Below are positions 16,908-19,137 of a stretch of 44,042 nt of DNA, one piece after another. The number at the start of each line of letters is the position of its first letter. Position 1 is the first letter of the stretch. The stretch is taken from positions 563-44,604 of IMG/VR virus record IMGVR_UViG_3300030406_001289, one strand, 5' to 3'. The notes beneath the pieces were generated by a model that searched no databases, was not told where the DNA came from, and saw only the letters and a program-made list of their open reading frames with translations. A program made the position numbers and the translations under genes. Source of the stretch: a virus.

Positions 16908-17219
16908 ATGGATAATAGAGATACAGTGTGGATAGAATTGCCTAGCATTACCCGTCCACCTAAAATGGATGATCGAAAAGAAGCATTAGCTAAAGCACAA
17001 AAGCGATGCGATAAAATAAATAAAGTTCTAAACAAGCTAGGCATTACAGATAAGTTTTATGCCAATGAAATATTCTTTAGTGAAGACCCTTACTCTGGTG
17101 CTAGTTGGGATCGTAACCCATACAGAATAGAACACAGTGGGGGATCTTTTACTTCGCTACAAGATGATGGTTATTCATTTGATCTAGACTATATCTTAAA
17201 ACAACTTGACAAAGAATGA
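16908..17219 (+). CDS. Early protein of unknown function
   Basis: A 103-residue protein with a good Shine-Dalgarno (AGGAG). The N-terminal half is a charged helix (DRKEALAKAQKRCDKINKVL), and the second half has aromatic and acidic residues (DPYSGASWDRNPYRIEHSGG) ending in DLDYILKQLDKE. No family recognised. Its stop overlaps the next start (ATGA), coupling it to the ArfA-like gene. Confidence 0.6.
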   Translation: MDNRDTVWIELPSITRPPKMDDRKEALAKAQKRCDKINKVLNKLGITDKFYANEIFFSEDPYSGASWDRNPYRIEHSGGSFTSLQDDGYSFDLDYILKQLDKE

Positions 17220-17377
17220 ACGATAGGATAAAAGCTCTTAATCCTGTGGCAAGGGCGGTTGCTTATAATCGCCCCCGTCAACAGATAGTCAAACCCAAAA
17301 AGGGTAAAGGTTCATACGACAGAAAACAAACTAACAACAACACAAAAGGGAAAAACAAATATGACTTCTATGTTTAA
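17216..17377 (+). CDS. ArfA-like alternative ribosome-rescue factor
   Basis: A 53-codon frame starts in an ATGA overlap with the gene before it. Its middle reads RQQIVKPKKGKGSYDRK. Escherichia coli ArfA carries RQRVEKNKKGKGSYMRK at the corresponding place, so the signature KKGKGSYxRK and the preceding RQ are kept. In ArfA this basic segment occupies the empty mRNA channel of stalled ribosomes, and the N-terminal part recruits release factor 2. Here the first 20 residues (MNDRIKALNPVARAVAYNRP) give an 'AL-P' start like ArfA. The C-terminus is short and basic. Unlike the host gene, which is shaped to be truncated before its stop, I see a normal stop 17 bases inside the next gene. Homology is strong over about 17 residues; activity is inference. 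Confidence 0.7.
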   Translation: MNDRIKALNPVARAVAYNRPRQQIVKPKKGKGSYDRKQTNNNTKGKNKYDFYV

Positions 17378-17783
17378 CACTGACTACGCTGAGATCAAGG
17401 TAACACAAACCATGCTCGACAAGCATATAATAGACGCTAACAAAAGCGTAATTAAATTGTTTGACGACACATACGATAATTTAGAAAACGGTGAGGGTGT
17501 AAAGTTTGACGGGGAATACTTTCTCCACAATACTATCAGTGTCATACGATGTTACAAGGCTAAGACGAGAGGCGATAAACGGATTAGTATATCTGGCTTG
17601 AATAAGAACACCAAAGCTGGTGACGTTATTGGCATCTTCAAAAGAATAGATGAACCACAGTATCATAACAGAACGCCCTTCTCCATCGTCAAATTATCTG
17701 CATGGTCAACTGAGGATGAGATGGAAGACTTGAAGGTTAGTCTAACTTACGAGGGCCTAGTAAAATCAGATGAGCCTGACTAA
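17361..17783 (+). CDS. Early protein of unknown function
   Basis: A 140-residue protein, mostly beta with short helices (DAGDVIGIFKRID-type strands; 'RGDKRISISGLNKNTKAGDV'; 'TPFSIVKLSAWSTEDEMED'). It begins 17 bases before the ArfA-like stop, with AGGG at a suitable distance. No family recognised, and no Cys cluster or membrane segment. It belongs to the early operon and overlaps the next gene by 14 bases. Confidence 0.6.
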   Translation: MTSMFNTDYAEIKVTQTMLDKHIIDANKSVIKLFDDTYDNLENGEGVKFDGEYFLHNTISVIRCYKAKTRGDKRISISGLNKNTKAGDVIGIFKRIDEPQYHNRTPFSIVKLSAWSTEDEMEDLKVSLTYEGLVKSDEPD

Positions 17784-18531: not shown

Positions 18532-19137
18532 ATGTTTGTTGGTTGGTCAAACCAAATGCAAAACGAGTACGAGGTACAAGAGATACCTTATGAAGCGACT
18601 AAGCCCTTTATACTAGAGGTGCATTACGCTAGAAGAATGCCATCTATTAGCCACGCCTACGGATTATTCCGCAACAGTATGCTGGTGGGGATGGTATCTT
18701 ACGGAAGCCCTGCATCACCTTGGCTATGCAAAGGCATATGTGGTGAGGAGCATAGGCATAACGTAATTGAATTAAACAGGCTAGTCTTAAAAGATAACCT
18801 ACCAAACGAGGCATCGTTCTTGGTGTCTCGCTCCCTAAAATTATTACCGAAGCCAAAGGTCGTGGTGTCCTATGCCGATACCGCGCAAGAACATATTGGA
18901 ACTATCTATCAAGCCTGTAACTTCCTATTCACTGGCACAACAAAGCCACGTACAGATATGGCAGGGGCAGATGGTAAGCACTCACGTCATCATCTGGGCG
19001 ATAGACAAAACAGAATTAATAGATCAGCGAAGCACCGCTACGTATATTTTATCGGATCAAAGAAAGATAAAAAGACATTGCGTAATGCGCTTCGATATAC
19101 TATTGAAGATACCTACCCAAAATTTTATGAGGAGTAA
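18532..19137 (+). CDS. mom: Mom-family adenine DNA-modification enzyme
   Basis: A 201-residue GNAT-fold protein of the phage Mu Mom type. Family stretches are HYARRMPSISHAYGLF (31-46), LVGMVSYGSPASPW (51-64), ELNRLVLKDNLPNEASFLVS (80-99) and VVSYADTAQEHIGTIYQACN (111-130), followed by FLFTGTTKPRTDMAG. Mom adds a carbamoylmethyl group to adenines in DNA, which protects phage DNA from many restriction enzymes. The C-terminus is basic (NRINRSAKHRYVYF, then a Lys-rich helix). A good AGGAG precedes the ATG. In Mu the gene is controlled by Com and Dam; no Com-like gene is seen here, and the gene sits behind a near-consensus promoter. Its position ahead of the replication genes fits modification of new DNA. 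Confidence 0.85.
   Translation: MFVGWSNQMQNEYEVQEIPYEATKPFILEVHYARRMPSISHAYGLFRNSMLVGMVSYGSPASPWLCKGICGEEHRHNVIELNRLVLKDNLPNEASFLVSRSLKLLPKPKVVVSYADTAQEHIGTIYQACNFLFTGTTKPRTDMAGADGKHSRHHLGDRQNRINRSAKHRYVYFIGSKKDKKTLRNALRYTIEDTYPKFYEE

Follow-up and report, generated by a model that had tools for sequence, protein, structure and literature searches.

Described ArfA Systems

The closest described counterpart of the phage gene reported here is the ArfA of E. coli and other gammaproteobacteria (YhdL, PF03889), with which the phage protein shares the KKGKGSYxRK tail, a similar length and an Asn where the helix begins. A further likeness is the strand segment that precedes the tail, which reads QQIV in the phage protein, QRVE in E. 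coli ArfA and VV in the gammaproteobacterial sequences. E. coli ArfA is made from a non-stop message under the control of an RNase III hairpin. The factor has been described as confined to a subset of beta- and gammaproteobacteria (PMC8012679). Similarly, two further papers report arfA in 0 of 2,376 Alphaproteobacteria (PMC11633108) and Alphaproteobacteria without arfA (PMC10070815). BrfA of Bacillus and ArfT of Francisella are analogues, being small release-factor-recruiting proteins that evolved independently according to PMC8012679.

ArfA encoded by phages is already known. Gene g10 of Citromicrobium phage RXM has been reported as ArfA (PMC8953757), and gp30 of pelagiphage HTVC027P, annotated as a hypothetical protein in the phage record, was named ArfA from PF03889 and described as highly expressed both early (3 hpi) and late (12-15 hpi) (PMC12753301). 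Additionally, a gene of Pseudoalteromonas phage J2-1 (GenBank MF988720), retrieved with a gamma-type query, is annotated as ArfA in GenBank. These ArfA-named genes are small, like the one described here, and come from other phage groups, as judged from the records. The RXM and HTVC027P copies were found by tblastn to resemble the alphaproteobacterial branch, and the HTVC027P copy keeps a Tyr at position 25 that the present protein does not have. The main text of PMC9038755, which treats HMO-2011-type phages, does not contain the words ArfA, ribosome, rescue or stalled. Literature searches combining ArfA with Pelagibacter, SAR11 or Alphaproteobacteria yielded no report of a SAR11 chromosomal ArfA.

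The Phage and Its arfA-like Gene

The window, that is, the whole stretch of 44,042 nucleotides that was analysed, comes from a virus record of 44,876 bases. The DNA polymerase that it encodes shares 43.9% identity, over 99% of the length, with the polymerases of Puniceispirillum phage HMO-2011 and Roseobacter phage CRP-1, and the gene order, helicase then polymerase, is the same as in HMO-2011; by its sequence, the window thus belongs to an HMO-2011-type phage. Cultured phages whose polymerases are nearest to the window's infect SAR116, Roseobacter-group and SAR11 bacteria. Downstream of the arfA-like gene, PHROG matches identified genes for Mom-like, MazG-like and endolysin-like proteins, a primase, a DnaB-like helicase, the DNA polymerase, a Cas4-domain exonuclease, an endonuclease and ribonucleotide reductase. 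The Mom-like DNA modification protein (window 18532-19137; phrog_1384, E = 1.8e-54) may shield the phage DNA from host restriction. No PHROG match was obtained for the upstream 103-aa gene. The features of the locus are collected in Table 1.

Table 1. Coordinates of the arfA-like gene and neighbouring features in the window.
Feature	Position	Strand	Basis
Upstream 103-aa gene	16908..17219	+	Its stop overlaps the arfA start (ATGA)
arfA-like gene, 53 codons + TAA	17216..17377	+	Frame; PF03889 29.5 bits against 25.5; pN/pS 0.15
Conserved core, residues 9-36 (NPVARAVAYNRPRQQIVKPKKGKGSYDR)	17240..17323	+	Invariant or nearly invariant columns of alignments A1 and A2
KKGKGSYDRK tail, residues 28-37	17297..17326	+	Inside the PF03889 24-43 alignment; aligns to PDB ArfA chains
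AAGGGA inside arfA, likely ribosome-binding site of the downstream gene	17346..17351	+	Putative; read in the sequence
Downstream 140-aa gene	17361..17783	+	Start inside the arfA 3' end
Primase, DnaB-like helicase and DNA polymerase, same early region, downstream of arfA; mark the phage type	20340..24382	+	PHROG matches; polymerase identity

The frame runs from ATG to TAA, and its 53-residue translation contains RQQIVKPKKGKGSYDRK; the position, length, sequence and overlap with both neighbours were exactly as the initial annotation had given them. Its start shares four nucleotides (ATGA, 17216-17219) with the stop of the upstream 103-aa frame, an overlap which suggests that translation of the gene may be coupled to that of its neighbour. 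The 3' end overlaps the downstream 140-aa frame by 17 nt and, since this end houses the likely ribosome-binding site and the start of the next gene, conservation of the last codons is no evidence on the protein. A six-frame scan of the window found a single KGKGSY-like motif, the one in this frame. Conservation in related phages had been set beforehand as a test of the ArfA reading; relatives were found, and the 28-codon core was under purifying selection, with a pN/pS of 0.15 over all pairs of 14 sequences. For viral arfA-like genes the value was 0.109, taken over 234 pairs whose nucleotide identity was 75% or more. The frame of 53 aa is thus a genuine gene and a conserved one. A promoter scan around it gave consensus matches only, which were given no weight. 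The fold at its 3' end was unremarkable (z = -0.74, with 45 of 200 shuffles equally stable); unlike E. coli arfA, the gene has its own TAA and no notable 3' structure and so bears no sign of the non-stop control known from E. coli. An E. coli-like hairpin control was not found.

Relationship to ArfA

The Pfam ArfA profile (PF03889) matched the window protein with 29.5 bits and an E value of 5e-7, above the curated gathering cut-off of 25.5, in an alignment spanning profile positions 24-43 of 44 only. A search of the PDB (E ≤ 10) returned six distinct sequences, all of them ArfA and all weak (E = 0.062-0.18). An HMM built from 15 gammaproteobacterial ArfAs scored the protein at 30.4 bits, a value reached by 0 of 500 shuffles of its residues (best 7.4), so that a composition artefact was ruled out as the source of the match. 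Since PF03889 is rare in an evenly drawn sample (2 of 143 Gammaproteobacteria), the gammaproteobacterial rows had to come from one family and do not form a broad sample: 14 of the 15 are from genomes of a family in which 17 of 59 matched, the fifteenth is from a genome of the same family (G002), and three further matches (L310, L311 and L318) were left out. The protein had no match in NCBIfam, only families of unknown function in PHROG and, by tblastn against 50,697 phage records (E ≤ 10), five weak records with E values of 0.09 to 7.

The reading of KKGKGSYxRK as the mRNA-channel tail, the part that in E. coli ArfA enters the channel, was put forward in the initial annotation and is well supported by the Pfam profile and the gammaproteobacterial HMM, and the KGKGSY match is no low-complexity artefact, as the shuffles showed. 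The Pfam search that had been proposed as a check gave a hit above the cut-off over this tail but no N-terminal match of the window protein alone. By its alignments, the direct ArfA match of the window protein is carried by the tail.

The N-terminal half was compared by profiles, whose rows were chosen by a pattern (an ungapped core with the seven preceding residues) that fitted 68 of 78 SAR11 and 126 of 159 viral loci; two gammaproteobacterial rows (L148 and L157) were excluded from the SAR11 set. Alone, the N-terminal half of the window protein gave no score against gammaproteobacterial ArfA, and the HMO-like viral subset, 27 rows picked by a pattern requiring R and then R or P near position 25, reached a probability of only 1.0 with 4 of 100 controls equally good. 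Taken by itself, the window protein therefore gives no support for direct homology to the N-terminal half of ArfA. All viral rows together matched gammaproteobacterial ArfA with a probability of 55.5 (0 of 100 controls). With SAR11 as the bridge, the probabilities were 58.4 for gammaproteobacterial ArfA against SAR11, 97.1 for SAR11 against all viral rows and 81.6 for SAR11 against the HMO-like subset, each with 0 of 150 column-permuted controls equally good. Homology of the helix would therefore rest on the chain from gammaproteobacteria through SAR11 to phage.

Residues of the Release Factor Switch

Residues were numbered with the core Asn as 14, so that Phe25 and Gln27 to Glu30, as numbered in PMC8012679, fall on the letters seen in the PDB alignment. 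Asn14 and Ala17 were present in all 52 distinct viral rows. At position 18, the window protein has Arg (its residue 13) and not the Ala18 of E. coli ArfA; all 52 distinct viral rows have Arg or Lys here, as do 56 of 63 distinct SAR11 rows, against Ala in 14 of the 15 gammaproteobacterial rows. At position 25, the window protein has Pro and not Phe25. Tyr or Phe was found there in 7 of the 52 viral rows, in 15 of 15 gammaproteobacterial rows and in 63 of 63 distinct SAR11 rows; the viral figure was taken from all 52 rows because the HMO-like pattern fixes position 25 by construction. In E. coli ArfA, the A18T substitution is reported to block RF2 activation by steric hindrance, and F25 to make an RF2-specific contact (PMC8012679).

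The window protein thus keeps the sensing tail and the RF2-pairing segment and lacks two of the residues that make up the RF2 switch. For it to act in rescue, a host-matched release factor or another contact would be needed. Given that Ala18 and Phe25 are not kept, the protein is referred to here as a member of an ArfA-related branch and not as an E. coli-type ArfA. The initial annotation had named it an ArfA-like rescue protein: the ArfA-related gene and tail stood, but the two E. coli-type residues are replaced by Arg and Pro, and that partly supported reading was right in kind and too direct.

Viral Relatives and Cultured Phages

Among viral contigs, a peptide-pattern search matched 391 stretches, 194 of which encode relatives (best 80 of 194 kept), and a search with alignment A1 matched 429, with 259 encoding relatives (best 80 of 259 kept); the 159 loci fetched include contigs taken twice, once from each search. 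PF03889 matched 21 of 22 A1 members at E ≤ 0.01. A primase, helicase or polymerase gene like the window's was present in 67 of the 159 loci, and in every one of these 67 such genes lay downstream of arfA and on its strand. In the 13 closest loci (L001-L013), the downstream 140-aa gene adjoins arfA in 12, and the thirteenth contig ends at arfA. The upstream 103-aa gene was absent from the fetched loci in a search at E ≤ 1e-4. When loci were sought with the window polymerase, 21 were found, six of whose contigs, judging by length, reach the arfA position about 4.9 kb upstream, and the gene was present in all six. In L042 and similar loci (e.g., L051:4917-5714), an ArfA-like core sits close to the N-terminus of a longer, 265-aa basic protein that is encoded among genes for virion structure; L042 scored 24.5 bits against PF03889, just below the cut-off.

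The 11 isolates with the nearest polymerases are HMO-2011, HTVC033P and CRP-1, -2, -3, -207, -212, -235, -345, -603 and -738. The KGKGSY form was found in CRP-212 only. HMO-2011, CRP-1, CRP-2, CRP-207, CRP-345 and CRP-603 encode a small protein with the NPxA segment and another tail, and HTVC033P, CRP-3, CRP-235 and CRP-738, as well as the more distant MEP402, gave no match at E ≤ 0.05. The tail-variant gene lies at 1.3-2.1 kb, upstream of the polymerase and on the same strand, in HMO-2011, CRP-1 and CRP-345, and at 41-44 kb on the opposite strand in CRP-2, CRP-207 and CRP-603. This mixed presence indicates that an arfA-like gene is common in the uncultured relatives, not universal, and variable in its tail. 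The CRP-212 frame (L082:2989-3114) has 41 aa, is nested in another reading frame at the 3' end of gp38, next to the coat gene, and has no gene annotation of its own. Similarly, an ArfA-like frame of Caulobacter phage Cr30 (L084, about 1932-2096) has no annotated feature of its own.

Tail Variants and DUF7230

Proteins with the NPxA segment and another tail (DKTKY and similar) were observed in HMO-2011 (L307), CRP-1 and CRP-345 (L302-L303), at L304-L306, in the SAR11 order (L361-L366) and at L335-L336, and some of them match DUF7230 (PF23876) with up to 43 bits. DUF7230 and the tail variants of HMO-2011, the CRP phages and SAR11 share the NPxA...RxxVV segment with the window family but have no KGKGSY, their tails (e.g., DKTKYxRK) being unlike that of the window protein. 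Against the gammaproteobacterial ArfA HMM, the HMO-2011, CRP-1, SAR11-variant and DUF7230 sequences scored 4.6 to 6.0 bits, and shuffled copies equalled or beat the score for three of the four. Eleven genomes of the SAR11 order matched the A2 profile weakly; ten were read, and all ten carry tail variants without KGKGSY. None of the four neighbour genes of the KGKGSY gene lay beside the variants in the six genomes checked, which argues against their being its orthologues. By profile, nine SAR11 tail-variant rows, chosen by eye, matched the SAR11 ArfA-like rows with a probability of 97.8 (0 of 150 controls). As a lead, DUF7230 may be a relative of ArfA. It was found in 5 of 385 alphaproteobacterial genomes and is therefore not widespread at that cut-off, so that it was set aside as a widespread alphaproteobacterial ArfA. 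No paper found in the literature search named DUF7230.

A Conserved Chromosomal Gene in SAR11

In GTDB species genomes, 479 stretches matched and 139 encode relatives; the best 80 of these 139 comprise 78 chromosomes assigned to SAR11 by title (L086-L165 except L148 and L157) and two Gammaproteobacteria. The SAR11 copy is a frame of roughly 35-50 aa ending in ...IVKPKKGKGSFKRKK or similar (e.g., L100:5980-6120). Its core and tail are the same as in the window protein and the N-terminal profiles match; it differs in having Tyr or Phe in place of Pro at position 25 and in being chromosomal. In 78 of 78 loci, the gene follows one for a response regulator whose C-terminal domain is OmpR-like, with the tail codons 62 to 772 nt (median 63) after the regulator match. 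Further on, 76 of the 78 loci have a pfkB-like gene and 73 an nth-like gene, the remaining loci ending shortly downstream. The pN/pS of 0.193 (1,484 pairs) indicates purifying selection.

The A2 profile matched 64 of 117 SAR11-order genomes: 53 of them at E ≤ 3.5e-13, including one whose copy is interrupted by a stop codon, and the 11 weak ones mentioned above; A2 contains SAR11 rows, so these matches are not independent of them. The remaining 53 genomes had no A2 match, absences that are soft because genome completeness is not given. ArfB (NF006718) was above the cut-off in 0 of the 117 genomes, with weaker matches in 114. Those listed cover about profile positions 7-43 of 140, lie nearly all in open frames of 220-390 aa and would fit class I release factors. 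Of 14 control genomes given the same search, 2 were above the cut-off. SmpB was found in 100 of the 117. Among 385 Alphaproteobacteria at large, PF03889 matched 10 (9 above the cut-off) and A2 matched 17. At least one SAR11 copy scores 27.5 bits with PF03889, above the cut-off, and protein databases may therefore list some SAR11 copies. The surprising part of these results is that SAR11, in which ArfB was not detected, has an ArfA-like gene conserved in its chromosome, and no prior report of this was found.

Proposed Function and Alternative Explanations

The window protein is probably an ArfA-related phage member of an alphaproteobacterial and phage branch, predicted to rescue ribosomes by binding the mRNA channel and recruiting a release factor. 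Its basic KKGKGSYxRK tail would slip into the vacant mRNA entry channel of a ribosome that has stalled on a message lacking a stop codon, and the QQIV segment would pair with the host release factor, either RF2 or a factor whose contact is unlike that of the E. coli pair. The recruited factor would hydrolyse the peptidyl-tRNA and free the ribosome, and expression from the early region could keep ribosomes available while transcripts from degraded host DNA, or mRNAs that have been cut, end without a stop codon. This reading is favoured by the PF03889 score, the gammaproteobacterial HMM against its shuffles, the N-terminal profile chain, the purifying selection on the core, the presence of the gene in the six relatives that reach its position, its early-region place in the 67 loci with replication genes and the reported expression of HTVC027P gp30 (PMC12753301). 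Against it stand the scoreless N-terminal half, the low probability of 1.0 for the HMO-like subset, Arg18, Pro25 and, among the isolates, the other tails or lack of a match.

The two switch positions would also suit a protein whose tail docks in the channel and leaves the release factor inactive, thereby competing with tmRNA-SmpB or slowing host translation: every viral row has Arg or Lys at 18 and few keep Tyr or Phe at 25, and these are the residues whose substitution abolishes RF2 activation (A18T) or which make the RF2-specific contact (F25) in E. coli (PMC8012679). However, most SAR11 copies also have Lys or Arg at 18 and are yet under purifying selection, which better suits a useful cellular function, and such a blocker is considered a minor, if credible, alternative. 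Convergence, in which a small basic rRNA- or nucleic-acid-binding phage protein with another function has come to carry an ArfA-like tail, would account for a direct match limited to that tail and for relatives that exchange KGKGSY for other tails. It is judged improbable, since the Asn and the tail stay in register in the bridging sequences and the N-terminal profiles along the chain beat all column-permuted controls. A chance frame between two overlapping genes, to which the short length of 53 codons and the overlap at both ends might point, has a negligible probability, and was rejected on its pN/pS and its conservation, together with the many relatives in viral contigs and the Pfam match.

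Taken with the SAR11 gene, the rescue reading leads to a broader and tentative proposal, which we hold at somewhat below an even chance: Alphaproteobacteria may have an unrecognised ArfA branch, chromosomal and at a single site in roughly half of the SAR11-order genomes, in which no ArfB was shown, and repeatedly carried by phages of Alphaproteobacteria. With Arg or Lys for Ala18, this branch would switch release factors differently, and the tail-swapped forms (HMO-2011, other SAR11 loci and DUF7230) would belong to the same superfamily.

Biological Significance

Genes of the arfA-like kind, with 35-55 codons, are unannotated or unnamed in the records of Cr30, HTVC027P and CRP-212. The window protein would offer a direct test of release-factor switching without Ala18 and Phe25, and the family would provide a handle on DUF7230, a Pfam family of unknown function. 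If the proposed reading is true, marine phages would supply their own ribosome-rescue factor to hosts among the Alphaproteobacteria, and SAR11, a group that ranks with the most abundant bacteria of the sea, would have a factor that surveys place outside its class.
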